A DNA stretch of 64,000 nucleotides. Origin: Microcella alkaliphila (GTDB taxonomy: Bacteria; Actinomycetota; Actinomycetes; Actinomycetales; Microbacteriaceae). The stretch spans positions 1 to 64,000 of the forward strand of contig NZ_SGXT01000014.1 in the NCBI RefSeq assembly GCF_004216855.1. Reading direction: 5' to 3'. Of the stretch, positions 548-30,476 are shown piece by piece; position 1 is the stretch's first letter, and each line of letters begins with the position of its first letter. Position numbers and translations under genes: made by a program. The notes below the pieces were generated by a model. It ran no database searches. It was not told the DNA's origin and saw nothing but the letters and a program-made list of their open reading frames with translations.

Positions 548-925
548 TTACTTATCCCCGACGAATGCGATCGCCTCTACCTCTACAGTGAACCCGCCGG
601 CGAGCGCTATTCCGAAGGTGCTTCGCGCTGGCTTGTGATCACCAAAGAATGCGGCGTATTCCTCGTTGAAGATGGCGAAGCTCTCGATGTCGGTAAGGAG
701 GCACATTGTCCGCACAACATCGCCGATTTCTGCGCCACTTTCAGCGAGGACCGCCTTCAGGTTCTTGAGGGACTGCCGCACCTCCTCGCGGAAGTCAGAC
801 GGTGTCTCGCCAGTCGACGGATCAACGCCAATCTGTCCTGCCGTGAAAACGAAGTCACCCACGCGTGATGCCTGGGAGTAGTGACCACCGGGAGCCGGTG
901 CGTTAGTGGTGTGGATAAGCTGCAT
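548..925 (-). CDS. ridA: RidA/YjgF family enamine/imine deaminase
   Basis: A 125-residue protein of typical RidA length. It carries the family features: YSQA near residue 16, FTAGQIGVDP near 27, the FREEVRQSLKNLKAVL helix, and a C-terminal VEVEAIAFV strand. RidA enzymes hydrolyse reactive enamines/imines released by PLP enzymes to 2-keto acids and ammonia. The start chosen is the ATG at 925, preceded by AAAGGAG; a longer upstream frame would run into the M20 gene. It is the last gene of the nine-gene operon, 26 bases after the M20 gene. Its presence beside a PLP enzyme suggests it clears that enzyme's imine product. Confidence 0.88.
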   Translation of the reverse strand: MQLIHTTNAPAPGGHYSQASRVGDFVFTAGQIGVDPSTGETPSDFREEVRQSLKNLKAVLAESGAEIGDVVRTMCLLTDIESFAIFNEEYAAFFGDHKPARSTFGIALAGGFTVEVEAIAFVGDK

Positions 926-951
926 GCTAATTGCTCCTTTGTCTTGGTTGA

Positions 952-2181
952 TCATCGGCAGAAGTCCGCGGCGATCCGCGCATACATTCGTGCGGCCTGA
1001 TGAATGCTCTCGACACTGACGAATTCGTTGGGGCCGTGCGCACAAGTCAGCACGCCAGGGCCAAACGAGGGAAGAGTGGGGATGCCGATCTGTGAGTACC
1101 ACGGCGCATCCGTCCCCCCGGGGAACACGCCAAGTGGCGGCGCCTCTCCGAGTACATCTTTGGACGCGGCCTGCGTCGCGGTGACGAGCGGGTGCTCTGC
1201 GTCAAGCTCGCTCCACGGGACCCAGTCAAGCCCGGGCTCGAACGAGTACTCGACTTGGAGCTCCGGGTCGGCCGCTCTGCAGGCATCCAGCCATGCTTCG
1301 ATGCCGACAGCAACTTCGTCTTTCGTCTGACCGGGGACCGTGCGCAGGTCGCACGCGAACTCCGCGCGCCCCGGAACGACACCGAAAAATGTGCCACCGC
1401 TGATCATCACGCCAGCGTTGAGCGTCGGACCAACCTGACCGAGCGGGTGCGGAGTGAAGGGAACGTCAAGTTCTGCACCGATTCGGGTCATGAGGTCAGC
1501 GAGCTTGAGAGACGCGTTTACAGACGGCATCCGGTCAGAGAGGCTCGAATGCATCTGGGTACCGTGGACGATGATGCGGAACCCGCAAACTCCCCGTGAG
1601 ACCAGGTGGATGCCCTGCCAATCGTGGTCCCATCCGCTTGGTTCCCCAATAAGGATCGCGTCGACGCCGGTGACGTGTGGCGCCACGAACTTTGCGCCGA
1701 GCTGAGCGCCCGCCTCTTCATCGGCAATCATCCCAATTACTAGGTCGCCGCTCAGTGGGGTTCCAGTTTCCTTGAGCGCGTAAGCGGCATAGATCATGGC
1801 GGCAACGGCAGCTTTCATGTCCGTTGTGCCGAGTCCGAACATTGTGCCGTTGATGGTCGTGGCCTCGAGGGGTTCGGTCCGCCATTGCTCGCGAGCCTCG
1901 CCAATCGGCTTGGTGTCGATGTGTCCATTGAGCATGAGATTCTTGCCACCCCCGGTGCCGCGAATACGGGCGATGAGGCTCGGCCGATCTTCGGACGGTC
2001 CGATAACCGTCAGTTCGTCAGCGAGTCCAAGCCTGGTCAGAGTTTCTTGCAGGAACTTCACGATCTCGCGTTCGTCGCCGTGTGGCGGTATCTGACTATT
2101 GATCGCCACCATGTCCTGAACGAGTGCAATGAGGTCGTCTTCCCGTTGGGCAAGGTAGGCGTCGATTTGTTCATGTGACAT
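952..2181 (-). CDS. M20 family metallo-deacylase (ArgE/DapE type)
   Basis: A 409-residue zinc amidohydrolase with the M20 layout. Metal ligands are visible as H87 and D89 (NGHIDT), D121 (GTTDMK), E155/E156 (ADEEAG), E180 (GEPSG), and a C-terminal His in CAHGPNE. A dimerisation domain sits between about residues 190 and 300. ArgE/DapE relatives remove acyl groups from N-acyl alpha-amino acids. It starts 2 bases after the PLP-enzyme stop, so the two are probably translationally coupled. In this cluster I infer deacetylation of a 2-acetamido-2-deoxyaldonate, which is chemically an N-acetyl alpha-amino acid. A general peptidase role cannot be excluded. Confidence 0.85.
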   Translation of the reverse strand: MSHEQIDAYLAQREDDLIALVQDMVAINSQIPPHGDEREIVKFLQETLTRLGLADELTVIGPSEDRPSLIARIRGTGGGKNLMLNGHIDTKPIGEAREQWRTEPLEATTINGTMFGLGTTDMKAAVAAMIYAAYALKETGTPLSGDLVIGMIADEEAGAQLGAKFVAPHVTGVDAILIGEPSGWDHDWQGIHLVSRGVCGFRIIVHGTQMHSSLSDRMPSVNASLKLADLMTRIGAELDVPFTPHPLGQVGPTLNAGVMISGGTFFGVVPGRAEFACDLRTVPGQTKDEVAVGIEAWLDACRAADPELQVEYSFEPGLDWVPWSELDAEHPLVTATQAASKDVLGEAPPLGVFPGGTDAPWYSQIGIPTLPSFGPGVLTCAHGPNEFVSVESIHQAARMYARIAADFCR

Positions 2182-2182
2182 G

Positions 2183-3418
2183 TCAAATCCTTTCTAGAGG
2201 CATCTCTGCAAGTACGGCTGTCACGCCCGCCAGAAGACGCGAGACGTCGCCTTTCGAATTCAGAACATGGAACGAGGCTCGAACCCGCCCGTCGCCGCCC
2301 CACACCAGCACCCCATGATCTGCAAGCCGCCGAGCAAAAGCCTCGCCGCCCGGGTGCAGGAATGCGACGCTACCGGCGTGTCTGGCAGAGTCGGAGGGGG
2401 TGATCACCTCAAGTCCCAAGTCGCTCAACCCGGCCATGGCTGCGCCGACCAAGGCGAGTGAGTGAGCCTCGACCTTCGCGATTCCAAGGTCAAGGATCGT
2501 GTCGATTCCAGCGCCGAGACCCGCAATGTCCGCTAGCGCAGGGGCTCCCATCTGAAACCGCGTCCCGTCGAGGTTCCAGTTGATTTCGTCGAAGCGCTTG
2601 TCCGTGAACATGTTCTCTAGCGACCGCCAGCCCACCGAGCCTGGCTCGAAGTCAGGCAGGCGATCCTGGTTCCAGATTACGGCGCCGACACCGTACGGAC
2701 CCAGGGTCCACTTATACGAAGCTGTGACGGTAAGAGCCGCAGCAGAGAGATCCATGTCGATCACGCCAAGGGAGTGCGAGATGTCGACGAGTAGCGGCAC
2801 ATTTGCTCGATCCGCGATCTGACCGAGCTCCGTGAGACTGTGTCGAAGTCCGGTGACGTAACCGACATGGCTCACAGCAATCGCCGTGGTGCGCTCATCA
2901 CAGTATTCCTCTATCGAAGACGCGGGCATCTCCCAGTCGTCATTCCGCGGGACGACGCGGACCTCGAGACCGTACTGACGCAACCGCAGGAAGGGTGCGA
3001 AGACAGCGGGGTGTTCGTACTCATTGATGACGATGTTGTCACCGGGTGTCCACTTCCAACCGTTGGCGATCGCGCTCCACGCCGTCGAGGCATCACCGAG
3101 CATTCCCACCTCTGACGCTCGCCGGCCGGTCAGCTGCGCGATGCTGTCCCGCGTGTGACTCTCGGCGGCGTAGAGGAAGTCCCGACCCCCCTCGCCCAGA
3201 CTCTTGGCCCTATATGAGGCGACAATCGCGTCCTCGACCCGCTTGAGCGCAGGCGAGTGCGCACCCCAGTAGAGGTACGCGTCCGAAGTGAGGTTGAGGA
3301 AATAGCTCGAGTCGAGCAGGGGGGTGTCCCCGGGAGTTATCATGGGCGCTTTCTGTTGTTCATGCGGGTTGACGGTCTCGGATCGCGCGTGTTCTCTGAC
3401 AGTCAGGGCATTCGCCAT
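2183..3418 (-). CDS. Fold-type-I PLP enzyme, aminotransferase class V group
   Basis: A 411-residue protein resembling cysteine desulfurase/isopenicillin-N epimerase-type enzymes. The Schiff-base lysine is probably K236 (SYKWTLGPYG), and D212 in LLVDISHS would contact the pyridine nitrogen. The frame opens at an ATG inside the last codons of the mutarotase gene (16-base overlap). An internal ATG encoding MITPGDT at residue 26 is an alternative start. No partner for sulfur transfer is nearby. With M20 and RidA downstream, I infer removal of the amino group of a beta-hydroxy alpha-amino acid, as D-glucosaminate ammonia-lyase does. Transamination is the main alternative. Confidence 0.8.
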   Translation of the reverse strand: MANALTVREHARSETVNPHEQQKAPMITPGDTPLLDSSYFLNLTSDAYLYWGAHSPALKRVEDAIVASYRAKSLGEGGRDFLYAAESHTRDSIAQLTGRRASEVGMLGDASTAWSAIANGWKWTPGDNIVINEYEHPAVFAPFLRLRQYGLEVRVVPRNDDWEMPASSIEEYCDERTTAIAVSHVGYVTGLRHSLTELGQIADRANVPLLVDISHSLGVIDMDLSAAALTVTASYKWTLGPYGVGAVIWNQDRLPDFEPGSVGWRSLENMFTDKRFDEINWNLDGTRFQMGAPALADIAGLGAGIDTILDLGIAKVEAHSLALVGAAMAGLSDLGLEVITPSDSARHAGSVAFLHPGGEAFARRLADHGVLVWGGDGRVRASFHVLNSKGDVSRLLAGVTAVLAEMPLERI

Positions 3419-3717
3419 ATTTCGTGGCTGATCTTGAGTTGCCCGTCGGCATCGAGTGGGTTGTGCATCAGCGTGCGGATGTGTCCACTCCAGCGCTGAT
3501 TGTCGGGATCGTCGTCCAGCGCCCGGAGAGTGTCGAATACCGATTCAACACATTCACCAAAAGCGATGACTGCATGATCGCGTCGGAAGAGTGAGTAGTC
3601 GGTGATACCCACCCGCTTCATCGCTTCGACTACTTCCGGCCAGATTTCCAGATGCTCCTGCTCGTACCGATCGAGTGTTCCCGGGAGCAGTTCGAAGGTG
3701 TAGCAGAATCGGGGCAT
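3403..3717 (-). CDS. L-rhamnose mutarotase family protein
   Basis: A 104-residue single-domain ferredoxin-like-fold protein of the RhaM/DUF718 type. Its N-terminus MPRFCYTFEL, a conserved His in YEQEHLEIWPEV, and a C-terminal HEIWRMP match the family. Such enzymes interconvert anomers of 6-deoxy-L-sugars. The start is the ATG at 3717, two bases below the amidohydrolase stop; a longer frame to 4029 would overlap that gene. Presence of a 6-deoxy-sugar mutarotase is the best clue that the substrate is a 6-deoxyhexose derivative. Confidence 0.87.
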   Translation of the reverse strand: MPRFCYTFELLPGTLDRYEQEHLEIWPEVVEAMKRVGITDYSLFRRDHAVIAFGECVESVFDTLRALDDDPDNQRWSGHIRTLMHNPLDADGQLKISHEIWRMP

Positions 3718-3719
3718 CG

Positions 3720-4541
3720 TCAGCTCACCTCGAGGATGCGCTGCATTGTCTTGCCGGTGAGGTCGTCCACCTCGTCGGCGCTGAGTTGCTTGCTGAGCCA
3801 GTCCGGAACCGAGAAAAGTTGGTCGACTGTCACTGTGCCCAAGCCAGGTGAATAGTCTGACCCCCAGACCAAACGAGAGATACCGAACGCCTCCATCGCC
3901 ACGCGGACGTCTGCTTCGGCCTGACGGTGCGGAAACTCTGGATCGATCGCGTACAAGCCAGTCAGTTTCACTGAAACTTGCGGATACTTCGCCAGCTCGG
4001 TCAGCGCAGCCAATCTCTTTGGGGTCCACGGCGCAAGAGAGTCAGCGGAAGAACATTCGATGGCGGCCAGTCCGGGCAGCCCGAGATGACTGATGAGCAC
4101 CTCGCTTCTCCCTAGCCTCTCGATTACGGGTCCGAAGCCGGCGAGCGCCGCGGGCGTCGCATTCACGCTGAGGATCGATCCGTGCTTGTCGATCGCGCGC
4201 CACACGTCGGCCTGCACCTGTTCAGCCAGGGCCGCATCCGAACCGAGGTAGAGGGAGAAGCCCGCTGCGCCGGCGGCGACAGCTTCGTCGACGGATCGAG
4301 CGCTCGCGTTTGTCGGGTCAATGAAGCTGAGGGGGACAATCCAATCGTGGTCTCTGGCGAGATTCAGCACGTATGCGCTGTTCCCCCTGAACCGGGAGTC
4401 GCCCTCGAAGCCGACCACGAGCGCCTTGTCGATCCCATACCGCTTCCGGAGAGACTGGTAGTCCTCGAGCTCCGCGCCGGCCGGCCTATTGTCGGCATAC
4501 CCGCGTTCGAAGAGGTGAATGTGCGAGTCGATCAGAGACAT
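3720..4541 (-). CDS. Amidohydrolase-2 family, probable sugar lactonase
   Basis: A 273-residue TIM-barrel amidohydrolase. HIH at residues 7-9, a further His in SHLGLPG, and the terminal Asp in WGSDYSPG form the expected metal/catalytic set. The family includes 2-pyrone-4,6-dicarboxylate lactonase and L-fucono/L-rhamnono-lactonases. It overlaps the end of the Idh/MocA dehydrogenase gene by 10 bases, so the likely product of the dehydrogenase (a lactone) is handed to this enzyme. The exact lactone is inferred, not shown. Confidence 0.83.
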   Translation of the reverse strand: MSLIDSHIHLFERGYADNRPAGAELEDYQSLRKRYGIDKALVVGFEGDSRFRGNSAYVLNLARDHDWIVPLSFIDPTNASARSVDEAVAAGAAGFSLYLGSDAALAEQVQADVWRAIDKHGSILSVNATPAALAGFGPVIERLGRSEVLISHLGLPGLAAIECSSADSLAPWTPKRLAALTELAKYPQVSVKLTGLYAIDPEFPHRQAEADVRVAMEAFGISRLVWGSDYSPGLGTVTVDQLFSVPDWLSKQLSADEVDDLTGKTMQRILEVS

Positions 4542-5551
4542 TCGCCGGCCTCGATTCGATGCGTTCTGGCAACCGCAATGATCTGCTCGGCGAGGTCGAT
4601 ACCTGCAAGCGCTTCGTCAAGGGTGACCACGGTGGGCGGATTCTCAAATCGGACCGCGTCGACGAACTGACGGATCTCTTCACGCAAAGCGCCGTGTCCG
4701 CCGTCGGGCGTCAGGCAATCGTCCACAAGGCTGGCCCCCGGACCGAAGTCGCGAACGCGGGGCGCAAGAGAGAGCGAAAGTGCTCCATTGTCGCCGATGA
4801 CCTCGAAGGAGTCCGAAAGCGATCCTGCCGCGAGCGACCAGGAGACTTGGAAGGAGATCGCCGTGCCATCTGTGGTCTCCACCTCGGCCCAGACGGCAAG
4901 CGGTTGCGACCGCGAGTGCGCCTCAATCTGTCGCGCAGTAATGTGAAGCGGCGTGGCACCGGTCAGCCACATCGCAAGATCTATGTCGTGAATCATCGTC
5001 ATGAGAACCGGATGAACGTCATGAAAGAGCTCATCATGGTCAGTCGTGCGGTGACGTCGAAAGGACAAGGCGCGCGGGGTGCCGACCACACCGGCTTCTA
5101 GCCGACTTCGGAGTTCTTGATACGGGGTGGCGAACCGGAGGATGTGTGCCGGCATAACGAAACCGGGCGCCCGCTCGACCGCCTCTCGCAATGTGCGCCC
5201 CTCGGTGCTGTTCATGACGACAGGCTTCTCGAGCAGCACACTTGCTCCACCCTCGAGCGCGGCAAGAGTTGGCTGAAGGTGGAAGGTCCCCGCTGTCACA
5301 ACGGCAACGGCATCCACCGCACGAGCCTCGAAGAGCTCTTCGGTGGTGCGGTACGTCTCCTGCACGGAAAAACGGGTTGCGAGTGCCTCTGCACGTTCGA
5401 TCGAGCGACCGACAACTGCGATCAATTCGCAGTCAGGGTTCTCTGTGAACGCTTGAGCGTGAAGCTCTGCAAAGGGCCCAGAGCCGACAATGGCCACTCG
5501 CACCGCCTGATGAGTGAGCGGGTGGTGAGAGTGGCCGTTGTCAGAGCTCAT
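4532..5551 (-). CDS. Gfo/Idh/MocA family sugar dehydrogenase
   Basis: A 339-residue protein with an N-terminal Rossmann fold (VAIVGSGPFAELHA, about residues 18-31) and the family EKP motif in LLEKPVVMNS, whose lysine is catalytic. The C-terminal alpha/beta substrate domain follows from about residue 140. These enzymes oxidise sugar or cyclitol hydroxyls with NAD(P). It lies between the solute-binding-protein gene (41-base gap) and the lactonase (overlap). I infer C1 oxidation of the imported sugar to a lactone; oxidation at C3 is also common in this family. Confidence 0.87.
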   Translation of the reverse strand: MSSDNGHSHHPLTHQAVRVAIVGSGPFAELHAQAFTENPDCELIAVVGRSIERAEALATRFSVQETYRTTEELFEARAVDAVAVVTAGTFHLQPTLAALEGGASVLLEKPVVMNSTEGRTLREAVERAPGFVMPAHILRFATPYQELRSRLEAGVVGTPRALSFRRHRTTDHDELFHDVHPVLMTMIHDIDLAMWLTGATPLHITARQIEAHSRSQPLAVWAEVETTDGTAISFQVSWSLAAGSLSDSFEVIGDNGALSLSLAPRVRDFGPGASLVDDCLTPDGGHGALREEIRQFVDAVRFENPPTVVTLDEALAGIDLAEQIIAVARTHRIEAGECL

Positions 5552-5592
5552 GGAACTTCTGCCTTCTATTTGCTTCGGTGTGAGGTATCGAT

Positions 5593-6606
5593 CTAGCAGG
5601 TCGGGTTGTAGATGTATCGCTGGGTCTCATCGCTGTCGACGTTGTCCGCGTCGATGATGTAGGCCGTGACGTACTCCTGGTACTCCAGGTCGCCCGAATC
5701 AAGATCCCCATCGATAATTCTCGCGATGCGCGCCACCGAGTCGTAGCCAAGACCGTAGGGGTCCTGCGCGACGAGCGCCTCGTAGACGCCGTTCTTGAGG
5801 TCCTCGACCTGCGAGGGGTCGGCGTCATAGGCGACGAGCTTGACCTCACCGGTCTTGTTCGCGGCTTGGATTGCAGCCGCGGCACCTGAAGATGCCGGGG
5901 CGAGGGTCGTGTAGATGCCCACCAGGTCCGGGCTGGTAATCGCCGCTGCTGCGATTTGCGACGCCTTCGACTGGTCAGCTTCCGAGTATTCGGTCGGAAG
6001 CACGGTGACATCCGGGTACGCCTCTGCCATCCGCTCCGTGAAGCCGTCGACGCGTTCCGCGTTTGCCGCAACCCCGGGGAATGAAGCGATTACGAGGACA
6101 GTTCCCGTTTCACCGATCGACCTGGCGAGCGCGTCTGCCGCGAGTGCACCGGCGCTAATGTTGTCCGTGCGGATGTTCTGCGCCTCGACCGGTTCGTTCA
6201 GGCTGCCGTCGACGGTGATTACAGGGATTCCGTCGGCAACGATGTTGCCCACGGTCTCGATGAGCCCAACAGGATCGGTCGGGACGAGCACCATGCCGCC
6301 AGGCTGCGACTGGACTGCCGCGTTGATGAGAGGCGTCTGGGTTGCGACATCCCAGTCGGCGTCACCCTGCCAGTCAAGGTCGACGTTGTATTCGTCGGCA
6401 GCCGCCTGCGCACCGCACTGCATGACCTGAAAGTACGTTGCAGTCATCTGCGCGGCAACGAACGAGACAACTCGGCTACCTGCCGCCGCATCGTCAGAGC
6501 CGTCTGCCGGTGCCGTTGCGCTGCTGCACGAGCTCAGCACCAACGCGAGGGCGGACGCGGCCGCGATGACGCTTCCGCGCTTTAGGACGTGTGATTGTTT
6601 TTGCAC
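5593..6606 (-). CDS. Ribose-type sugar ABC solute-binding lipoprotein
   Basis: A 337-residue periplasmic-binding-protein-type-4 receptor. The N-terminus is a lipoprotein signal with LSSC giving Cys27. The mature part has the RbsB-like pattern (AAADEYNVDLDW, VPTDPVGLIETV, GIPVITVD, VLVIASFPG). It starts at a GTG at 6606 preceded by AAAAGGAG. The gene lies 78 bases after the permease. It should capture the substrate outside the membrane and deliver it to the permease. Confidence 0.9.
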   Translation of the reverse strand: MQKQSHVLKRGSVIAAASALALVLSSCSSATAPADGSDDAAAGSRVVSFVAAQMTATYFQVMQCGAQAAADEYNVDLDWQGDADWDVATQTPLINAAVQSQPGGMVLVPTDPVGLIETVGNIVADGIPVITVDGSLNEPVEAQNIRTDNISAGALAADALARSIGETGTVLVIASFPGVAANAERVDGFTERMAEAYPDVTVLPTEYSEADQSKASQIAAAAITSPDLVGIYTTLAPASSGAAAAIQAANKTGEVKLVAYDADPSQVEDLKNGVYEALVAQDPYGLGYDSVARIARIIDGDLDSGDLEYQEYVTAYIIDADNVDSDETQRYIYNPTC

Positions 6607-6684
6607 AGTGTTCTCCTTTTGGCTGGATGGATCTCTTGGTGGGTGTGAAGGTCTGGAGAGTCCGCACAGCGGAGCAGAGACTGA

Positions 6685-7746
6685 CTAGCTGGGTGCCGCG
6701 CGGCGGCGCTGGTCGATTCCGACGGCGATCAAGAGGATCACACCTGTGACGACCAATTGATAGAACGAGCCGACTCGCATGATGACGAGCCCATTGATGA
6801 GAATGGCCGGGATGATGGCCGCGATCATCGATCCCAGTACTGACGCACGCCCACCAAACAGGCTCGTGCCGCCGATGACCACAGCCGCGATCGCCGCGAG
6901 AGCGTCCCCCTGATGGCCCTGGATGTTGGTCGTCAAGAATCGAGAGATATCGATGAATCCGACTAGGCCGGCGATCAGTCCCATGATTCCGAAGAGCTTC
7001 ATGCGCTGCAGCTTCACGTTGATCCCAGCGCGTTGAGCAGCCCGGATCGACGACCCCATCCCGACCGTGTGGGTACCGAAACGCAGTCTCGTCATGACAA
7101 ACCAGGCGATGGCACCGATAAGGACGGCGATGAGCGCCGGAATGGGGACGACCCCGAAGAGGTCGGCTGAGCCAAAGTTCCTTTGCAGCTCACGAGGCAA
7201 GGCGCTGACGTTCACCCCGCCCGTGATGATGTAGGCAACTCCGCTACCAACACTCATCATCGCGAGAGTCACAATGAAGGAGTTGACTCGGAGCATGTTG
7301 ACAAGCGTCGCGTTCACAATGCCGAAGAGAGTGCCCGTCACCATGGCAGCGAGGAGTCCAAGGAGTATTGCTACACCGGCATTGCTGTAGTTGCCGGCGA
7401 GCACCTCTTCAGGCGTCCCGCCCATGAAGGTGATCACCTTGGCTGCAACCACAGACGACAGAATCACGTTCGCACCGATTGAGAGGTCCAGTTCGCCAGC
7501 GCCCAACAGGAAGGTCATTCCAACGGCAAGCAAAATGAGCTGTGCGGAATCGAGTGCAAGATTGCGGAAGTTGGTGGGACCGAGGAACACCCCGTTGGGG
7601 GAGAGCAGACCGAAGATGAGAATGAGGATGAGTACAACGACCGCGATCATGAATGCTGTCGACGTGACGATCCTCTTCGCTAGCGGCGGTTCGCTGCTGG
7701 AGAACGTTGCGGCGGAAGTGTGCGGGGACGTCTTCGTGAGGTTCAT
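6685..7746 (-). CDS. CUT2 (RbsC-like) ABC transporter permease
   Basis: A 353-residue multi-spanning protein. It contains the CUT2 signatures GELDLSIGANVILSSVV and VVIGGTSLFGGRASVLGS near the C-terminus. Roughly ten hydrophobic segments are visible. Its ATG overlaps the stop of the ATPase gene by 4 bases. It forms the membrane channel for the sugar bound by the lipoprotein encoded just downstream. Confidence 0.9.
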   Translation of the reverse strand: MNLTKTSPHTSAATFSSSEPPLAKRIVTSTAFMIAVVVLILILIFGLLSPNGVFLGPTNFRNLALDSAQLILLAVGMTFLLGAGELDLSIGANVILSSVVAAKVITFMGGTPEEVLAGNYSNAGVAILLGLLAAMVTGTLFGIVNATLVNMLRVNSFIVTLAMMSVGSGVAYIITGGVNVSALPRELQRNFGSADLFGVVPIPALIAVLIGAIAWFVMTRLRFGTHTVGMGSSIRAAQRAGINVKLQRMKLFGIMGLIAGLVGFIDISRFLTTNIQGHQGDALAAIAAVVIGGTSLFGGRASVLGSMIAAIIPAILINGLVIMRVGSFYQLVVTGVILLIAVGIDQRRRAAPS

Positions 7747-8573
7747 GCTTCGTCCTTCTGAGCTGTAAGCATCGTCGTCAGTACGTCGACTAGCTCGAGA
7801 CCGTCTGTTGGCATTTGAGACACCACGGCACCGTGGCGCATGATCGCCATTCGATCGGCGAACTCGATCATCTTTGGGATGTCGTGGCTCACGAGAATGA
7901 CGGCAAGCCCGCGATCTGCAGCCGCGCGCACAGCGTCGTAGACCATTGCCGTCTGCTTTGTCCCGAGCGCTGCCGTAGGTTCATCCATGATGATCGCTGC
8001 CTTCGCCCACATGACAGCGCGTGCCACTGCGATTGCCTGGCGCTGGCCCCCCGAGAGGGCGCTCACTGGAACGGTGAGTGAGGGAACCTGGGCACCGAGA
8101 AGAGTCATCGCCTCCTTGGTGCGTTGCCGCATGGACTGCTCATCAAGCTTGCCGAGTATGCGACCGAAGCCTCTAACGAGTAGCTCGCGACCGAAGAAGA
8201 AATTCTGCGAGACAGTCAGGTCGGGAGCTTGTGCAAGGTCTTGGTAGACGATCTCGATCCCGAGCTCCCGAGCCTGACGAACGGATGCTACGTCCACGCT
8301 GTTGCCCCGCAAAAGGAGCTCGCCGCCGTCACTTGCGTGAACTCCCGCGATGACATTGGCCAGCGTCGATTTGCCGGCACCGTTGTCGCCGATTAGCGCG
8401 AGCACCTCTCCCGGGTAAGCCCTGAGCGACGCGCCTCGCAGCGCCTCGACGTGGCCGAAGCTTTTCGTAATTCCACGAGTCTCGATGACTGGCTGCGCCG
8501 TCGATTCAAGGCCCGGGTCGTCAGCTTCCGTAATGTCGGCTTCCAAAAGCTTCTCCATTGAAATTGAACTCAA
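7743..8573 (-). CDS. CUT2 ABC transporter ATP-binding protein, single domain
   Basis: A 276-residue protein with one nucleotide-binding domain: Walker A GDNGAGKST, signature LSGGQRQ, Walker B AIIMDEPTAA, and the switch His in LVSHD. Most ribose-type importers use a fused double ATPase of about 500 residues; the single-domain form resembles FrcA-type proteins. The start is uncertain: a TTG at 8573 opens the frame and an ATG at 8558 is possible, neither with a clear ribosome site. It is the first gene of the operon, just below the proposed operator at 8597-8614. Confidence 0.87.
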   Translation of the reverse strand: MSSISMEKLLEADITEADDPGLESTAQPVIETRGITKSFGHVEALRGASLRAYPGEVLALIGDNGAGKSTLANVIAGVHASDGGELLLRGNSVDVASVRQARELGIEIVYQDLAQAPDLTVSQNFFFGRELLVRGFGRILGKLDEQSMRQRTKEAMTLLGAQVPSLTVPVSALSGGQRQAIAVARAVMWAKAAIIMDEPTAALGTKQTAMVYDAVRAAADRGLAVILVSHDIPKMIEFADRMAIMRHGAVVSQMPTDGLELVDVLTTMLTAQKDEA

Positions 8574-8596
8574 ACATGTTCGCCATGTCAGTTACT

Positions 8597-8614
8597 CGTT
8601 CGCTCTACCGAACG
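8597..8614. promoter_or_regulatory. Proposed operator, copy 1 (palindrome)
   Basis: CGTTCGCTCTACCGAACG is an inverted repeat with CGTTCG and CGAACG arms around six bases. Its first 15 bases recur exactly at 9283-9297, upstream of the divergent GH-like operon. It lies 24 bases above the ATPase frame. The XRE-cupin regulator encoded between the two copies is the natural candidate to bind it. Confidence 0.6.
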
Positions 8615-8683
8615 ACACAAGTAAACCAAAGCTAGGTCACCGCGTCAACACCTCGTGACGGATAGTGCCGCCTCGGCGACTAC

Positions 8684-9253
8684 TCAGTTCACGAATGGGT
8701 ACTGCTGCACGACGAGCAAGCGTCCACCGTCGGCGCGTGCCCGATAGATGTGGGGTTGATCGGCATGAAAGGTGATCATGTCGCCCGGCTCCAGAAGAGT
8801 CATGGACTCGTCTGGCCCCACCTCGACCAGGCCGCTGAGGCAAACGGCGCGTTCCACGACACCAAGGGAATTGCCCCGTGAGCTTCGTTTCGCATTCGGC
8901 GCCAACGACACAATCGAGACTTCAACTTCGCCAGAATTGCGCCACGATGCCATCAACTGAGCCACAAACTTGTCACCATCGTGTGCGATAACAGGCGCAT
9001 CGATGAGGCGCTTGAGCTCAACTTCGCTACGACCAACGGGTCCCATGAAGAGTGCGCCCAACGAAACGTGCAGGGTCTTGGCAAGCGCCCAGAGCGTGTC
9101 GAGCGACGGGTTCCCGTTCCCCCGCTCGAGCTCAGACACCGTTGACTTCGCCAGTCCTGCTTCTCGAGCGAGGGCGGAGGCACTCATGCCCCTGCGCTCG
9201 CGCCACATTCGAAGGTTGTTGGCCAAAGGCGAAAGGAGCTGGCGTTGTTCCAT
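8684..9253 (-). CDS. XRE-family regulator with C-terminal cupin domain
   Basis: A 189-residue protein (start at the ATG at 9253, MEQRQLL). An N-terminal helix-turn-helix (about residues 13-50, ALAREAGLAKSTVSELERG) is followed by a small cupin sensing domain ending in GDMITFHADQPHIYRA. This architecture is common in repressors that bind a metabolite in the cupin. The longer frame up to 9319 would read through the operator and is unlikely. No Shine-Dalgarno is evident, so the mRNA may be leaderless. It sits between the two operons it probably controls. Confidence 0.85.
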   Translation of the reverse strand: MEQRQLLSPLANNLRMWRERRGMSASALAREAGLAKSTVSELERGNGNPSLDTLWALAKTLHVSLGALFMGPVGRSEVELKRLIDAPVIAHDGDKFVAQLMASWRNSGEVEVSIVSLAPNAKRSSRGNSLGVVERAVCLSGLVEVGPDESMTLLEPGDMITFHADQPHIYRARADGGRLLVVQQYPFVN

Positions 9254-9282
9254 GGTGTCGGCTATGTTACATAACCACCTGC

Positions 9283-9300
9283 CGTTCGCTCTACCGATCG
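9283..9300. promoter_or_regulatory. Proposed operator, copy 2
   Basis: CGTTCGCTCTACCGATCG matches the 8597-8614 site at 17 of 18 positions. It lies in the divergent spacer, 30 bases above the regulator start and 36 bases above the GH-like gene start. That placement would allow both autoregulation and control of the plus-strand operon. Confidence 0.58.
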
Positions 9301-9335
9301 CTTCCCCACTTCTACGCACAAAGAGGAGACGATCG

Positions 9336-11018
9336 ATGTCGCAGGGTTCCCACGTTCAGATGTTTGGCCGAGTCACTGTTCTCGGTGCCGACGCGCATCC
9401 GCATGCGGCACGACGACTCAAGGAGTCATGGGCCGACTTGGAGTGGCTCGACGCGGCCGCAGGGTCGGTCGTTCCAGAATCCATGCCCACAGTCATGTTG
9501 CGTGAATCAGCAGGCTTGGATGAGGGCGCTTTCCGCATTGAGGTGGACTCAACGGGCGCAGTGCCGTCGATCACGATCACGGGCGGACCATTCTCCGGCG
9601 TGATCTTTGGAGTTGAGGAGCTAGTTCAGCGGATCTCCCAACCAGCACCCAACGGCATTCGCATTGCGGACCGCAATTTGGAGCGCACCCCCAAGCTGGC
9701 GTACAGGACTTTCTGGACCTGGGATCACTCGACCAACTGGGAGCTCAATCAGATCGGGCACCAGGAGATCGGTGTGTTTAACTCGTACGGGAAGCCACCT
9801 GGAGGCTTCCTTGCGGACTACCGCCGGATGGTTGACTTCTGCAGCATGAATCAGATCGCGGCCATCGTGATCTACGGCTTCTTCCGGGACAGCCACGGCG
9901 GAGTCGCTGCCGCACAGGAGTTGTGTCGCTACGCCAACGAACGGGGCGTCCGGATCCTCCCGGGAATTGCGATCGGGGCCTACGGAGGGGTCTATTGGGA
10001 GGGCAAACACCCCTACAATCTCGCGACGTGGCTCGATCGGAACCCAGGATACGAAGCCGAAATGGAGCGAGGGGTCGGATTCCAATTGCAGGACCTCTCC
10101 TTCCCCCTCAGCTTTCCCAAGAGTGACTACACTCGCACCGCCTGCCCATCCGAACCCGCCAACATCGAGTGGATGCGTGATGCGATTTCGTGGCTAGTAG
10201 AAACCGTCGACGTTGGCGGCATCAACATCGAGGCCGGCGACTACGGGGTCTGCGGATGTGCGAAGTGCAATGCCCGACGCGGCGAGCGCGAGACGGCAGC
10301 ACGGCGCGACAACGACGCCGAATTCTGGTCGCACGCCGACATGGCCGACAACTTCCCCGTGTTGTTCGATGCCGCCCGATCTCAGCGAAAGGATCTTTGG
10401 TTGTACTGCGAGTTGCAGTGGGACAATCTCCTGGACCCCGCCGCCCACGATCCGCTCAACACGCTTCCTCAGGGAGGCATCTACCAGCACACGTTTAATC
10501 GCTCGTATTGGAATCGGGCGCGCACCGAGCTCACCGCAGCAGACGTCAGGTCACTCCCCACGCAGACCAACGTTATTCGTAGTCAGTTTGCCTGCCAATG
10601 GAATGGCGACGAGCGCACGGAACGCTATGCCTTCAACGCCCCCGACTTCGCAGAGTTGGCAAGAACTTCGGCGGCGCTTGACATGCAGGGGCTCACGGTG
10701 TGGGGGGAACCTTCGCCGTACCACGTTTCTAGCGAATTGAGCTACCTCGCTTTCGGCCGATTCACCTATGACCCCGACCTCACATGGGAAGAGTTCATGG
10801 CACAGGATGTCGCCCCCCGGGTCGGCGGTCAGTCTGAAGCTGATGCCTTCGTGAGGCTCATGGAGGAGCTCGACGGCAGCGCCAGGATCGACGCAACCCG
10901 CCTTCGGGGCATCCGCGATGAGGCGCTCGATGCTGCCAAGAGCACGGTTGGCGACGCAGTGCGCCGATGGCTGTGGCTCGCGGACCGGGCGAGCCAGCGC
11001 AGTTTCATGGGCCACTAG
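9336..11018 (+). CDS. GH20/GH67-like glycoside hydrolase candidate
   Basis: A 560-residue protein with no signal peptide. Residues of about 40-120 look like the alpha/beta domain that precedes GH20 or GH67 catalytic barrels (GAFRIEVDSTG, GVIFGVEELVQ). About 120-440 read as a TIM barrel, including the acidic INIEAGDYGVCGCAKC segment with paired cysteines seen in related barrels. The ATG at 9336 follows AAGAGGAG; an open frame extends further upstream but antisense to the regulator. Cytoplasmic location suggests it cleaves an imported oligosaccharide or glycoside. The exact family and catalytic residues are not certain. Confidence 0.65.
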   Translation: MSQGSHVQMFGRVTVLGADAHPHAARRLKESWADLEWLDAAAGSVVPESMPTVMLRESAGLDEGAFRIEVDSTGAVPSITITGGPFSGVIFGVEELVQRISQPAPNGIRIADRNLERTPKLAYRTFWTWDHSTNWELNQIGHQEIGVFNSYGKPPGGFLADYRRMVDFCSMNQIAAIVIYGFFRDSHGGVAAAQELCRYANERGVRILPGIAIGAYGGVYWEGKHPYNLATWLDRNPGYEAEMERGVGFQLQDLSFPLSFPKSDYTRTACPSEPANIEWMRDAISWLVETVDVGGINIEAGDYGVCGCAKCNARRGERETAARRDNDAEFWSHADMADNFPVLFDAARSQRKDLWLYCELQWDNLLDPAAHDPLNTLPQGGIYQHTFNRSYWNRARTELTAADVRSLPTQTNVIRSQFACQWNGDERTERYAFNAPDFAELARTSAALDMQGLTVWGEPSPYHVSSELSYLAFGRFTYDPDLTWEEFMAQDVAPRVGGQSEADAFVRLMEELDGSARIDATRLRGIRDEALDAAKSTVGDAVRRWLWLADRASQRSFMGH

Positions 11019-11027
11019 GAGTACGCA

Positions 11028-11879
11028 ATGAAGCTCATGCGCATCGGCGAGCCCGGCAAAGAGATCCCGTGCGTCGTGCACAACAACATCTACTACTCGA
11101 TCGCGTCACTCACGCCGGATGTCGACCACCATTTCTGGATGGAGAGAGGGCCTGAACGTGTCGCAGAAGCACTTTCCTCCTCGCTTCTTCCCGAGATATC
11201 AACCGACGGTGCCCGCATCGGCGCACCGATAGCGCGACCGTCGTCCGTGTTCTGCATAGGCATGAACTATGCGGCGCACGCGGCAGAATCCGGGTCAGAA
11301 CCCCCGACTGTTCCGATCTTGTTCCACAAGGCACCCAACACCGTTGTCGGACCCAACGACAACGTCGCGATTCCACGAGGATCATCCAAGACCGACTGGG
11401 AGGTTGAACTCGGTGTCGTCATCAGCAAACGAACGTCATACCTCGATTATCGAGAGCAGGCTGGCGAATCGATCGCTGGATTCGTCACGGTAAACGACCT
11501 CTCGGAAAGAGAATTTCAACTGGAGACGTCCGGTGGCCAATGGTCGAAGGGCAAGAGCTCCGCGGGCTTCTGCCCGGTAGGGCCGGTGCTTGTCACCCCT
11601 GACGAGTTTGACCCCAGCGACGCACGGCTTCGCAGTTGGGTGAACGGGGAACCTCGCCAGGACTCAACGACTGCAGACATGATCTTCAGCGTCCACGAGA
11701 TCATCTTCAACCTCAGCCAGTACCTCGTGCTGGAACCGGGGGACCTTATCTGCACAGGCACCCCCGAGGGAGTCGCACTCTCAGGACGTTTTCCCTACCT
11801 CAGGGTCGGTGATGTGGTCGAGGTCGAGATCGATGGTCTCGGCCGTCAGCGCCAGCACTTCACCCCTTCCCACCCCTAA
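11028..11879 (+). CDS. Fumarylacetoacetate hydrolase family protein
   Basis: A 283-residue protein. The C-terminal FAH domain starts near residue 70 (SVFCIGMNYAAHA). Metal ligands appear in DWEVELGVVI and VNDLSEREFQ, and GDLICTGTPEGVA is a family hallmark. Members include 2,4-diketo-3-deoxy-L-fuconate hydrolase, which yields pyruvate and lactate. It lies 9 bases after the GH-like gene and 8 before the SDR, the same FAH-SDR pairing seen in non-phosphorylative L-fucose and L-rhamnose routes. I infer the final C-C cleavage step of this pathway. Confidence 0.85.
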   Translation: MKLMRIGEPGKEIPCVVHNNIYYSIASLTPDVDHHFWMERGPERVAEALSSSLLPEISTDGARIGAPIARPSSVFCIGMNYAAHAAESGSEPPTVPILFHKAPNTVVGPNDNVAIPRGSSKTDWEVELGVVISKRTSYLDYREQAGESIAGFVTVNDLSEREFQLETSGGQWSKGKSSAGFCPVGPVLVTPDEFDPSDARLRSWVNGEPRQDSTTADMIFSVHEIIFNLSQYLVLEPGDLICTGTPEGVALSGRFPYLRVGDVVEVEIDGLGRQRQHFTPSHP

Positions 11880-11887
11880 GGACAAGC

Positions 11888-12631
11888 ATGGAATTCGACG
11901 GACTCACAGCAATAGTCACCGGCGGAGCGTCCGGTATCGGGGCTGCTACTGCCGCCCAACTCGTGGAACGAGGCGCACAAGTCGCAGTGCTTGACTTGAC
12001 CCCTGAACTCGCGGCGGACAACGTGATCGCGTTGGCGTGTGACGTCTCTGATGATGACTCGGTACGCTCTGCCGTTGCTCTAGCGGCAGAGCAACTCGGC
12101 GGAATCGACATCGTCGTCAACAACGCGGGAATCGGTGCGCAAGGCACCATCGAGAGGAACGAAGACGATGAGTGGCACCGCGTTTTCGACGTCAATGTCG
12201 TCGGACTTGTTCGTGTTTCCCGCGCAGCACTACCCTTCCTTCGCGATTCGGGACATGCGGTCATCGTAAACACCTGCTCTATCGCAGCAACGGCTGGCCT
12301 GCCGGAGCGAGCGCTGTACAGCGCAACGAAAGGCGCCGTACTTTCGCTCACCATGAGCATGGCAGCAGACCACCTTCCCGAGGGAATCCGTGTGAACTGT
12401 GTGAATCCAGGGACAGCGAACACGCCGTGGGTCGAACGTCTTCTTTCCTCAGCAGCAGATCCTGCAGCAGAGCGGGCAGCGCTAGAAGGGCGTCAGCCAC
12501 ACGGGCGTCTTGTTGAACCGGACGAGGTGTCCGCCGCAATCTGCTACCTCGCTAGCCCACTCGCTGAGTCAACAACCGGGGTGGCCCTCGCCGTCGATGG
12601 CGGAATGCAGGGGCTTCGAATCAGAACGTGA
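11888..12631 (+). CDS. SDR dehydrogenase, probable 2-keto-3-deoxyaldonate 4-dehydrogenase
   Basis: A 247-residue classical short-chain dehydrogenase. It has TGGASGIG for NAD(P) binding, NNAG near residue 80, the catalytic Ser in NTCSIAA, and YSATK. The aspartate in VAVLDLT at the end of beta-2 suggests NAD. It pairs with the FAH hydrolase, which fits oxidation of 2-keto-3-deoxy-L-fuconate/rhamnonate to the 2,4-diketo acid. It is the last gene of the plus-strand operon, followed by a hairpin at 12701. Confidence 0.85.
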   Translation: MEFDGLTAIVTGGASGIGAATAAQLVERGAQVAVLDLTPELAADNVIALACDVSDDDSVRSAVALAAEQLGGIDIVVNNAGIGAQGTIERNEDDEWHRVFDVNVVGLVRVSRAALPFLRDSGHAVIVNTCSIAATAGLPERALYSATKGAVLSLTMSMAADHLPEGIRVNCVNPGTANTPWVERLLSSAADPAAERAALEGRQPHGRLVEPDEVSAAICYLASPLAESTTGVALAVDGGMQGLRIRT

Positions 12632-12747: not shown

Positions 12748-12818
12748 GAGGGCGTGAGGAACGAACTGGTGACAACTGATCGTTAGTGCCGCAGGGCGCT
12801 GGCGGGGAGGATGTCATC

Positions 12819-13124
12819 ATGCCCGGTCCCTATCCCAGAGAGTTCCGCGAGGACGTCGTCGCGGTCGCTCGTAGCCGTGAGAGCGGCGTCACCATCAAAC
12901 AGATCGCCACCGATTTTGGTATCAGTGAGGCGACGCTGCAGAACTGGTTGCGTCAAGCCGATGTCGAGGAAGGCAACCGGCCCGGTCAGACCGCCGCCGA
13001 TGCCGCGGAGGCCCGGGAGTTGAAAAAGCGGATCCGCTTGCTTGAGCAGGAGAACGAGGTGCTGCGACGTGCGGCGGCGTATCTGTCGCAGGCGAATCTG
13101 CGCCTCGGTGGCTCCCCAAAATGA
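12819..13124 (+). CDS. IS3-family transposase OrfA
   Basis: A 101-residue OrfA with a helix-turn-helix (about residues 22-45, ITIKQIATDFGISEATLQNW-like) and a C-terminal leucine-zipper region (ELKKRIRLLEQENEVLRRA). The ATG at 12819 follows GGGGAGG; an upstream start at 12786 is less likely. It overlaps orfB by four bases at CCAAAATGA, where IS3 elements usually make a fused transposase by programmed frameshifting. Confidence 0.85.
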   Translation: MPGPYPREFREDVVAVARSRESGVTIKQIATDFGISEATLQNWLRQADVEEGNRPGQTAADAAEARELKKRIRLLEQENEVLRRAAAYLSQANLRLGGSPK

Positions 13125-14068
13125 CGTACCCGCTCGTATCTGAGCTCGCCGATGCGGGGATCCCCGTGACGGTGTCGTGTCGGGTTCTGAAGCTCGCAAG
13201 ACAGCCCTACTACCGGTGGCGCAACGACCCCGTCCGCGCTGCCGACGTGCTCCGCGCGTATCGGATCAACGCGTTGCATGACGCGCACCACGTCGACCCA
13301 ACGTTCGGTTACCGATACCTCGCCGACGAAGCCCGTCGAGCGGGGTGGCGGATGAGCCGGCGGACGGCGTGGAAGCTGTGCTCGCAGGCCGGGATCCTCT
13401 CGTCCGCCCAACGTCGAAGGTGCCGGAAGGGCAAGAAGGCCGGGCCGCCCGTGTTCGACGACCACGTCCAGCGCGTGTTCCGCGCTGATGCACCGAACCG
13501 GGTCTGGCTCACGGACATCGCGGAGCATTGGACAGGCGAAGGCAAGCTCTATTGCTGCGCGATCAAGGATGTGTTCTCCAACCGGATTGTCGGCTACTCG
13601 ATCTCCGACCGGATGACCGCGAAGCTCGCCGTCGACGCCGTCCGCAACGCCGTCGCCCGCCGTGGTGAGGTCGCCGGCTGCATCCTGCACGCCGATAGGG
13701 GTAGTCAGTTTCGGAGCCGGGCGATGGCCCGCGAGCTGCGCCGCCACGACATGGTCGGATCGATGGGACGCGTCGGCGCCGCAGGGGACAACGCGGCCAT
13801 GGAGTCGTTCTGGTCACTGCTGCAGACGAACGTGCTCAACCAGCACCGGTGGGGCACACGGCAGGAGCTGCGGCTCGCGATCGTCGTATGGATCGAGCGG
13901 AAGTATCACCGTCAGCGCGCGCAGGACACCCTCGGCGGCTTGACGGGCGGCACCGGGCCCGCGCTCATCAGCCGGCAGGCCGACCCAAAGGACCCCAGAA
14001 ACGCAGGAAACCCCCGAACCAGTAGGTTCGAGGGCTTCCGATGTCCTGAGAAAGGACAATGGCGGTGA
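13121..14068 (+). pseudogene. IS3-family transposase OrfB with foreign C-terminus
   Basis: A 315-codon frame with the rve integrase core: D in VWLTDIAE, D in HADRGSQF, and E in AAMESFWS form the DDE triad. The tail after LGGLT does not match the relative at 25201. It is instead the translation of the tRNA-side repeat, so the last 30 or so residues are not native. The catalytic core is intact and some activity may persist, but mobility of the element is doubtful without its right end. Confidence 0.7.
13983..14054. repeat. Right copy of ~70-base direct repeat; tRNA terminator hairpin
   Basis: Matches 12678-12747. It contains a stem of 14006-14020 with 14025-14039 around loop AGTA. On the minus strand this hairpin lies just 3' of the tRNA stub, so it is the natural terminator of the former tRNA-Ser gene. 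A short palindrome, TGTCCT-AGGACA, follows at 14043-14058. Confidence 0.6.
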
Positions 14069-14086
14069 CGGTGGGATTTGAACCCA
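14064..14086 (-). pseudogene. 3' stub of a tRNA-Ser gene
   Basis: On the minus strand the 23 bases read as a T-arm and 3' acceptor end (GGTTCAAATCCCACCGTCACC). The acceptor GGTGACG-type end is typical of actinobacterial tRNA-Ser. No anticodon or 5' half follows, so the gene is not functional here. It may mark an att site of a lost integrative element, since tRNA 3' ends are common integration sites. The remaining 14087-14395 holds no supported gene. Confidence 0.6.
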
Positions 14087-14395
14087 AAGAGCCCCGATCC
14101 AGTCCGCGCCGGTTCGCTCAGTTACCCCGGAATCACGCGAATACTAGGTCTTCATTCTCAGCTTTTAACCCGGTTCGGTTGATCCCGATTCTGTTCACTT
14201 GTGGGCAACTGGTGGGCAACGAGGATAGGTATGCCCCCGCTCCGAACGAGGGCGACTACCGGGGCCAGTCACCTATGACAGCGAGCAGGCCCGCGAAGCC
14301 ACCTACTACGGGTCCACCACTGCAATCACCACAGCCCCTCCCCGGCTCGACGGCCACGCCGCTCAACCCGTATTCATAACCTCACGGGGAACTAC

Positions 14396-15592
14396 TTAGG
14401 AGGGCACGACCTCGGTCTCGCCCTCCCAGGCCGGCTCGCGTCCCTCTTCGAGAGACACGTCGAACGGCTTCTGATCGCTCAGCGTCCACTCCGGCAGGTA
14501 GGTCTTCTGGCCACCGTTGACGGCCGACTCGTGCGACAGGATGCCCGCACACGTGATGTTCGCCGCCTGCACCGCGTTGGGGAACGCCTCCCCCTCGCCG
14601 GCGACCGCCATGAGCAGCGCGTGGGCGAGATGCGGGTGCGATCCCCCGTGGCCGCCGCCCTGCACGAACGACCGGTGCTCCAACTCGCCCTCATCGGTGT
14701 AGACGCCCGCGGTCGTGAACGACTGGATCTCGGCGGGCAGCCGGCTCGCGAAATCGGGCACCTCGACCCGCTCCGCACGCTCGCCGAGGTAGACGACGTG
14801 CGCGCCGTCCTCCGTCTGCGACCACTCGAAGGAACGGATCGCACCGTACGCGTCGAAGCTCTCCCGGTACTCCCGGGCGACGGCCCAGAGATGCCGGGTG
14901 ACCTCCGCGCCCAGATCAGCGTCGAGGAACTTGATATGGGTCGACTCGATCGCGAACGGCGAGCCGTAGGCGGACTTCATCCGCTCGAAGACCGAGCCCG
15001 ATCCGAGCGCCTGAACATACTCGGCCTGGTGGCGGCCGAGCGCGAGCGTGGGGCTGATCGCATGGGTCGCGTTGTACATCGGCGGCATGCCGTCCCAGTA
15101 CGACGGCCACCCGGTCATGTCCTGGTGGTGCGAGGCGCGCAGGAACTGGAGCTTGCCGAGCGCGCCCGAGCGATAGAGGTCCTGGACGAAGAGGAACTCA
15201 CGGCTATAGACCGTCGTCTCCATCATCATGTAAGTCAGGCCGGTACGACGCTGGGCGTCGACAATCCGCTTGCAGTCCTCGACGGAGATCGCCATGGGGA
15301 TGGTGCAGCCGACGTGCTTGCCCGCCTTCAGCGCGGCGACGACATGGTCGGCGTGGAACTGCAACGGAGTGTTGATGTGGATGATGTCGATGGATGGGTC
15401 GGCCAGCATCCGGTCGTAATCGGTGTAGCGCACCTCCACGCCGTACCGGTCGCCGACCTCGTCGAGCTTCGATTGCGTGCGCTGACAGATGGCATACATC
15501 TCGGCATTCGGGTGCCGCTGGTAGATGGGGATGAACTCCGCACCGAATTCGAGTCCCACGATGCCCACTCGGTACACGTCCTGGATGGCCAT
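14396..15592 (-). CDS. Gfo/Idh/MocA family oxidoreductase
   Basis: A 398-residue protein starting at ATG 15592, preceded by GGAAAGGA. The N-terminal Rossmann fold (VGIVGLEFGAEFIP) departs from GxGxxG. The usual EKP lysine position reads CTIPMAIS, so the canonical catalytic Lys appears absent. Late segments GGGHGGSHPHLAH are reminiscent of 3-keto-sugar-processing members. It is the last gene of the second island's operon. I infer a redox or hydratase/lyase role on a keto-glycoside. Confidence 0.8.
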   Translation of the reverse strand: MAIQDVYRVGIVGLEFGAEFIPIYQRHPNAEMYAICQRTQSKLDEVGDRYGVEVRYTDYDRMLADPSIDIIHINTPLQFHADHVVAALKAGKHVGCTIPMAISVEDCKRIVDAQRRTGLTYMMMETTVYSREFLFVQDLYRSGALGKLQFLRASHHQDMTGWPSYWDGMPPMYNATHAISPTLALGRHQAEYVQALGSGSVFERMKSAYGSPFAIESTHIKFLDADLGAEVTRHLWAVAREYRESFDAYGAIRSFEWSQTEDGAHVVYLGERAERVEVPDFASRLPAEIQSFTTAGVYTDEGELEHRSFVQGGGHGGSHPHLAHALLMAVAGEGEAFPNAVQAANITCAGILSHESAVNGGQKTYLPEWTLSDQKPFDVSLEEGREPAWEGETEVVPS

Positions 15593-15624
15593 GTTCTCGT
15601 CCTTTCCTGCTCCGACGGAGCTGC

Positions 15625-18727: not shown

Positions 18728-18745
18728 TGCCTTTCGTAGCTCGGA

Positions 18746-19606: not shown

Positions 19607-19672
19607 TTCGTGTGTCCTTTCAGGAAGAAGTGTGGGGCCGGACGCTCACCGACGCATCCGGCCCCGGCGCGA

Positions 19673-30445: not shown

Positions 30446-30476
30446 CCGCGATTCGTGGATGCCCTCCGAGCATCCC

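Follow-up and report, generated by a model that had tools for sequence, protein, structure and literature searches.

The release of the amino group from an N-acetylated sugar acid in three steps, by a deacetylase, a pyridoxal phosphate (PLP)-dependent deaminase and RidA, has been published for N-acetylglucosaminate in oxidative chitin catabolism (PMC9537276). A glucosaminate route has also been predicted for haloarchaea (PMC12343721). The ong pathway of Pseudoalteromonas prydzensis ACAM 620 combines a beta-hexosaminidase and an N-acetyl-aldonate deacetylase with a PLP enzyme that releases ammonia to leave a 2-keto-3-deoxy acid, and with a RidA protein that is needed in vivo (PMC9537276). The non-phosphorylating L-fucose pathway, or Route III, employs a mutarotase, a dehydrogenase, a lactonase, a short-chain dehydrogenase/reductase (SDR) and a fumarylacetoacetate hydrolase (FAH)-family enzyme (PMC6336799, PMC11199699). 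Proposed counterparts of both sets lie side by side in a gene cluster of Microcella alkaliphila, at 548-12631 of the 64,000-nucleotide stretch analysed here (the window; contig NZ_SGXT01000014.1). We consider it probable that this cluster is a pair of catabolic operons for an imported N-acetylated 2-amino-2-deoxy sugar, the best guess being N-acetyl-L-fucosamine (L-FucNAc; 2-acetamido-2,6-dideoxy-L-galactose) or one of its glycosides.

An earlier sequence-only reading had proposed oxidative catabolism of an N-acetylated 2-amino-2,6-dideoxyhexose for this region. Open reading frames and family scans locate every gene that it named. On the minus strand, whose genes are read from right to left, lie the genes for a RidA-type enamine/imine deaminase (551-925, starting at 925), an M20-family N-deacetylase (955-2181), a class V (fold-type I) PLP enzyme (2186-3418), a RhaM-family sugar mutarotase (3406-3720), an amidohydrolase-2 family protein (3723-4541), a Gfo/Idh/MocA dehydrogenase (4535-5551), a CUT2-type sugar-binding protein (5596-6606), a CUT2-type permease (6688-7746), an ATP-binding cassette (ABC) transporter ATPase (7746-8573) and, at the divergent point, an XRE-cupin transcription regulator (8687-9253). 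The plus strand carries a GH20-like protein (9336-11015), an FAH-family hydrolase (11028-11876) and an SDR (11888-12628). The earlier statement that sugar-acid dehydratase, sugar kinase and aldolase are missing agrees with the translations of the open reading frames from 1 to 12.7 kb, among which none was seen.

From the gene identities, the conserved active-site residues and the linkage of the genes we infer every reaction, the order of the reactions and the substrate. The CUT2 importer would bring the sugar in, and the GH20-like protein, which has no obvious signal peptide and may be an intracellular glycosidase, would free it inside the cell. After the action of the mutarotase, the MocA enzyme would oxidise C1 to give a lactone, and the amidohydrolase would open this to an N-acetyl-aldonate, a compound that would resemble an N-acetyl amino acid. 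The M20 enzyme would then take off acetate, and the PLP enzyme, as an amino-aldonate dehydratase or ammonia-lyase, would eliminate water from the 2-amino-3-hydroxy acid; hydrolysis of the enamine/imine by RidA would yield a 2-keto-3-deoxy acid and ammonia, so that no sugar-acid dehydratase of the kind used in the L-fucose route would be required. The SDR, a putative 2-keto-3-deoxy-L-fuconate 4-dehydrogenase, would oxidise C4, and the FAH enzyme, a putative 2,4-diketo-3-deoxy-aldonate hydrolase, would cleave the resulting 2,4-diketo acid to pyruvate and lactate. Where a relative has no local SDR-FAH pair, these last two steps are taken to run through another FAH-SDR pair in its genome.

One argument for a common function is linkage. 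Small hidden Markov models (HMMs) were used to search 23 loci, with the caveat that most of the models derive from the window, L030 and L031, which match them by construction. Eleven of these loci are actinobacterial and encode a PLP enzyme with a WGGDGR motif (the window, L014, L026-L029, L109, L030, L107, L110 and L031, from seven genera if that of L014 is counted). Beside the PLP gene, MocA and the amidohydrolase occur in all 11, M20 and RidA in 10 each, and RhaM in 7; DUF4432 is present in three of the four loci that have no RhaM. In most loci no more than about 0.1 kb separates the PLP gene from that of the amidohydrolase or the mutarotase. Ten of the genomes, totalling 35.2 Mb, contain 50 RidA and 84 M20 matches, so that 0.028 and 0.048, respectively, would be expected per 20 kb; within the 20 kb taken at each locus, RidA is found in all ten and M20 in nine. 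The M20/PLP/RidA trio thus keeps company with the dehydrogenase and lactonase, as postulated before, far above the background density of RidA and M20 genes. The M20 proteins of the type B loci (L030 and L107 among them) are only 23-24% identical to that of the window, and therefore the linkage has survived, or has arisen, in separate lineages. Ten loci whose class V PLP homologue lacks the motif served as a control (L108, L032, L033, L034, L111-L114, L012 and L013): MocA occurs in three, the amidohydrolase, RidA and FAH in two each, and M20 in none at the HMM threshold (L013 has an annotated YxeP-like hydrolase).

Searches with the PLP enzyme at E 1e-30 over 398 genomes of the family returned orthologues of near-identical length (E < 1e-180) in five (G000, G573, G620, G661 and G398); at that level a phylum sample of 396 genomes returned only M. 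alkaliphila itself. A seven-row profile at E 1e-60 matched 3 of 396 genomes of the order, the figures for genera g317 and g300 being 4 of 27 and 3 of 5, and a scan of named genome contigs added one locus, on a contig of a Cryobacterium metagenome-assembled genome (L014). The order from RidA to the GH20-like gene is identical in the window and in four other members of the family (L026-L029), with identities of 42-85%; L026-L028 belong to one genus and are therefore not independent. L014 keeps this order but lacks RidA, and lies on a contig that stops inside the end of the GH20-like gene, so that the FAH-SDR side is not readable there. PLP homologues from plasmid searches were all below 60% identity, and the four neighbourhoods opened (L010-L013) hold other gene sets.

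The PLP enzyme (Aminotran_5, 132 bits) has a catalytic-type lysine, K236, and the WGGDGR motif, both invariant in seven aligned sequences. Its closest solved relatives, the SufS-type cysteine desulfurases and kynureninase, have the class V fold (by sequence) and the Schiff-base lysine in common with it. The desulfurases carry a loop with the catalytic cysteine, whereas the 13 columns of this loop are missing from the seven-member profile in all three alignments shown. On this ground the enzyme is not regarded as a plain cysteine desulfurase. Of the outcomes that would have refuted the earlier proposal, two that sequence can address, a desulfurase and a trio not conserved, are thus not borne out; a plain transaminase is still compatible with the sequence. 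Also among the structure matches is 1elq, the cystine lyase C-DES, a beta-eliminating class V enzyme. A structure model of the PLP enzyme built from the window and L014 sequences only was unusable, with a predicted local distance difference test score (pLDDT) of 34.1.

The remaining minus-strand proteins were assigned as follows. RidA matches PF01042 (111 bits) and exceeds the cut-off of TIGR00004 (126 bits; cut-off, 106), and R101 and E115 are invariant among eight aligned cluster RidA proteins. The M20 enzyme, for which an N-acetyl-aldonate is the proposed substrate, scores 230 bits with an ArgE/DapE deacylase model, above its cut-off; H87, D89, D121, E155, E156, E180 and H382 are invariant in eight sequences. 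The amidohydrolase (PF04909, 58 bits), a candidate aldonolactonase, keeps H7, H9, H152, K192 and D229 in nine sequences; its sole NCBIfam match is L-fucono-1,5-lactonase, at 48 bits versus a cut-off of 400, and its sole PDB match is 4dlf (E 7e-7). The invariant residues of these three proteins are those expected for metal binding or catalysis. The mutarotase matches PF05336 (68 bits). The MocA protein, putatively the sugar C1 dehydrogenase, matches PF01408 (80 bits), and its best NCBIfam model is inositol 2-dehydrogenase (101 bits versus a cut-off of 355). The binding protein (PF13407, 176 bits) finds ribose/arabinose-type binding proteins in the PDB. The permease and the single-domain ATPase (276 amino acids) were recognized from their translations; tblastn places orthologues beside the cluster in five loci, 81-87% and 79-87% identical, respectively. 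The regulator, with HTH_3 and Cupin_2 domains, is 70-85% identical in five loci.

The identity of the sugar is approached through the end of the pathway. Because the stereochemistry at C2 and C3 is lost at the 2-keto-3-deoxy acid, an SDR of the L-fucose type points to C4 and C5 configured as in L-fucose. The window SDR matches many SDR models, and its best PDB match is 4dqx. Residues R141, T176, W181 and R202 align with R170, T205, Y210 and R231 of 4dqx, an R-T-W-R pattern versus R-T-Y-R. The latter pattern marks the neighbourhood of the type 2 L-2-keto-3-deoxyfuconate (L-KDF) dehydrogenases in which 4dqx has been placed, with activity shown for a Paenibacillus enzyme; the L-2-keto-3-deoxyrhamnonate dehydrogenase is reported to have the opposite C4 preference, and its nearest structure is given as 6D9Y (PMC11199699). 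Among the matches listed, 6D9Y does not appear in the 41 sequences that match the SDR at E 1e-34. The SDR is thus predicted to have carboxylate-binding residues in common with the type 2 L-KDF dehydrogenases.

The usual substrates of M20 deacylases, as of class V PLP enzymes, are L-amino acids, although exceptions exist. L-FucNAc gives a 2S aldonate and N-acetylglucosamine (GlcNAc) a 2R one; in the ong pathway the 2R compound is handled by D-type enzymes (PMC9537276). Together, the SDR residues, the L-amino-acid habit of the two families and the 2S aldonate favour L-FucNAc. The class of N-acetyl-6-deoxyhexosamines proposed earlier is retained, and the choice left among fucosamine, rhamnosamine and quinovosamine is narrowed, with moderate confidence, to the L-fucosamine form. 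It is possible, though we put the chance somewhat short of even, that the cluster encodes a dedicated L-FucNAc pathway, an L-series counterpart of ong in which M20, the class V PLP enzyme and RidA would replace L-fuconate dehydratase and feed the last two steps of the L-fucose route, and that, jointly, the class V enzymes with WGGDGR would form a new group of amino-aldonate ammonia-lyases. An L-type deacylase and an L-type PLP enzyme would have been recruited, rather than the D-type pair, because the aldonate of L-FucNAc has the L-amino-acid configuration.

All five genomes, that of the window and the four with orthologous clusters, contain a second adjacent FAH-SDR pair elsewhere (FAH 57-66% and SDR 69-75% identical to those of the window). 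In M. alkaliphila itself (L091) and in L092 and L093 this pair shares its locus with genes for an aldo-keto reductase and a dehydratase of the enolase type; the mutarotase beside it is of FucU type in L091 and L093 and of RhaM type in L092, and a fuconolactonase-like gene is present in L091 and L092. NCBIfam matches at the second-pair loci fall under the cut-offs, and the best model for the dehydratase is talarate/galactarate dehydratase; to speak of an L-fucose operon in these three of the five genomes is therefore an interpretation of the genes present. The second pair of L094 and L095 is accompanied by lactonase-like, aldo-keto reductase and RhaM-family genes. The presence of RhaM-family genes in the fucose-type locus L092, and beside FAH-SDR in L094 and L095, rules out that RhaM by itself signifies L-rhamnose. 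With the L092 dehydratase as query, no match was obtained in L014, L026-L029, L035-L038 or L109. The FAH and SDR trees give no clear position for the window copies.

Several observations weigh against the proposed pathway. Neither FAH nor SDR lies next to any of the four orthologous clusters (L026-L029), in the 3.3-8.9 kb read to the left, beyond RidA, or the 11.6-12.9 kb read to the right, and this excludes the pair as a conserved part of the cluster; among the 11 WGGDGR loci FAH occurs in three (the window, L109 and L031) and SDR in the window alone. Of the co-occurrence once envisaged, the part that concerns the FAH-SDR pair is not conserved; FAH joins PLP and RidA in L109 and L031. The lactonase and FAH family models all remain under their equivalog cut-offs, and the mutarotase is of RhaM type, not FucU. 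RidA is missing in L014 and M20 in L031, and the second FAH-SDR pair of L094 and L095 has no dehydratase match beside it. None of the partner genes accompanies two plasmid homologues from Mesorhizobium whose motifs read W[AG]GDGR, and in the type B loci L030 and L107 there is a gene of the enolase superfamily, possibly for a dehydratase. The GH20-like protein has GGDY at the site where GH20 enzymes have GDE. Nonetheless, linkage and sequence support the pathway logic, in which deacetylation, PLP-dependent deamination and RidA would stand in for the dehydratase, as originally suggested; the placement of FAH-SDR is a local feature.

That local placement also bears on the nature of the sugar. The same chemistry could act on GlcNAc, N-acetylgalactosamine, quinovosamine, rhamnosamine or a pentosamine, with general enzymes taking the 2-keto-3-deoxy product and the window FAH-SDR as a local addition. 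We judge this unlikely, though it is the more serious of the alternatives: type B clusters are without FAH altogether, pentoses, too, are processed by Route III enzymes (PMC6336799), and the FAH subfamily cannot separate L-rhamnose from L-fucose types. Indeed the window FAH (PF01557, 223 bits) has rhamnonate types as its best named model (2,4-didehydro-3-deoxy-L-rhamnonate hydrolase, 240 bits versus a cut-off of 500) and best structure (8gsr, L-2,4-diketo-3-deoxyrhamnonate hydrolase, 197 bits). The fit of the SDR to type 2 L-KDF dehydrogenases and the L-fuconolactonase match of the amidohydrolase argue for L-FucNAc instead, as does the company that FAH keeps. In L109, from another family, RhaM, MocA, amidohydrolase, PLP, RidA and FAH stand in a row, with M20 about 8 kb away; L031 has RidA, PLP, MocA, amidohydrolase and FAH, the last after the amidohydrolase, with a zinc alcohol dehydrogenase.

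The separability of FAH-SDR might suggest two unrelated modules, one for 6-deoxy-sugar oxidation (mutarotase, MocA, lactonase, FAH and SDR) and one for salvage of N-acyl-amino acids (M20, PLP and RidA). The Marinibacterium locus L013, where a kynureninase-like PLP enzyme, RidA and the YxeP-like hydrolase occur together without sugar genes, shows such a combination. This division is improbable, since M20, PLP, MocA and amidohydrolase are together in 10 of the 11 loci from seven genera, the PLP gene in most of them adjoins that of the amidohydrolase or mutarotase, and the type B lineage keeps the set despite its divergent M20. Improbable too, and slightly more so, is a PLP enzyme that acts as an aldolase (on glycine and an aldehyde) or transaminase, with RidA merely guarding against side products. 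The class V fold spans transaminases, lyases and hydrolases, and sequence alone does not fix the reaction; but a 2-keto-3-deoxy acid is indicated by the RidA linkage in 10 of the 11 loci and by the presence of FAH alongside PLP and RidA in L109 and L031, and by reading the cluster holds no gene for handling glycine or recycling an amino acceptor.

The assignment of the GH20-like protein is weak. It has no Pfam or NCBIfam match at E 0.001 and no match in the plasmid searches. With E values up to 5 allowed, GH20 domain 2 was matched in all six aligned orthologues (best 7.4e-6; window, 0.25), and the same scan gave no match to the GH20 catalytic domain. The two best PDB profile matches are beta-N-acetylhexosaminidases, at E 0.29 and 0.55, which are not significant. 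A model from the window and L014 sequences only was again unusable (pLDDT 38.4).

Related gene sets accompany the PLP enzyme elsewhere. L031 (7703-19825) contains RidA, an IclR regulator, PLP, the zinc alcohol dehydrogenase, a CUT2 importer, MocA, amidohydrolase and FAH, and no M20; possibly its enzymes apply this chemistry to an amino sugar that is not acetylated. A sister set in L030 (7087-15187), L107 (4920-13053) and L110 (5474-10977) comprises amidohydrolase, PLP, M20, MocA, DUF4432 and RidA, with enolase-type and Amidohydro_1 genes in two of the loci, and in L110 a GH20-domain-2 protein and a sugar ABC importer close by. This set may belong to a similar route for a different amino sugar.

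Horizontal acquisition of the cluster is probable. The first 12.6 kb have a G+C content of 60.6% versus 67.4% for 14.1-64 kb, an IS3-type transposase pair lies just past the SDR (12786-14068, by reading), and the PLP gene is absent from all nine congeners sampled (E 1e-30). The window starts at base 1 of its contig (C3), and therefore the region left of RidA is not visible; the first 95 bases (1-95) are found again where contig C10 of this genome ends, a repeat that probably broke the assembly on the RidA side. A stretch resembling the 3' part of a tRNA follows the IS3-type pair (12786-14090), ARAGORN reporting only a tRNA-Lys at 44131. Farther along, translations indicate a second CUT2-type sugar cluster (14396-24777) with binding protein, permease, ATPase, a ROK-like regulator, MocA and SDR (both also by HMM), a GMC-like oxidoreductase with small subunit, and an isomerase/epimerase-like protein. 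Two IS30-like transposase fragments (25499-26839) come next, and then (27224-38251) a polyphosphate-kinase-like gene and apparently two tandem phosphate ABC transporter gene sets. On the RidA side of L029 (627-8880) lies a convergent operon with a BMP-type ABC importer, a glyoxalase-like protein, an aldehyde dehydrogenase and a 391-residue FAA-hydrolase-domain protein different from the window FAH.

N-acetyl-fucosamine occurs in bacterial surface polysaccharides, and text searches of the open-licence literature found no route for fucosamine breakdown. If the proposal is correct, the cluster would provide a complete route for N-acetyl-fucosamine, open to direct test with purified enzymes; it would assign a function to a group of class V PLP enzymes that has so far no name and make RidA a pathway enzyme, beyond its protector role. 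The cluster would also exemplify how the handedness of the sugar, L or D, decides which deacylase and PLP families are recruited.

The earlier description of the pathway as undescribed agrees, for fucosamine, with the literature searched and has to be qualified for the deacetylase-PLP-RidA logic, already on record for N-acetylglucosaminate (PMC9537276). Several features set the cluster apart from ong. The deacetylase OngB is a D-aminoacylase-type (beta/alpha)8 protein (PMC12017989), whereas that of the cluster belongs to M20. In ong the aldonate is made outside the cell by a lytic polysaccharide monooxygenase, and the 2-keto-3-deoxy product goes to the kinase KdgK; in the cluster the aldonate would arise inside through mutarotase, dehydrogenase and lactonase, and the product would pass to SDR and FAH. 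The ong substrate is D-gluco, the one proposed here 6-deoxy-L-galacto. Route III differs in using an aldo-keto reductase where the cluster has MocA, and an enolase-type dehydratase where M20, PLP and RidA stand instead. A known PLP enzyme that acts on a phosphorylated D-amino acid likewise converts a 2-amino-aldonate derivative to a 2-keto-3-deoxy acid via an enamine, as proposed here; unlike the cluster, that system has neither deacetylase nor RidA in its account.

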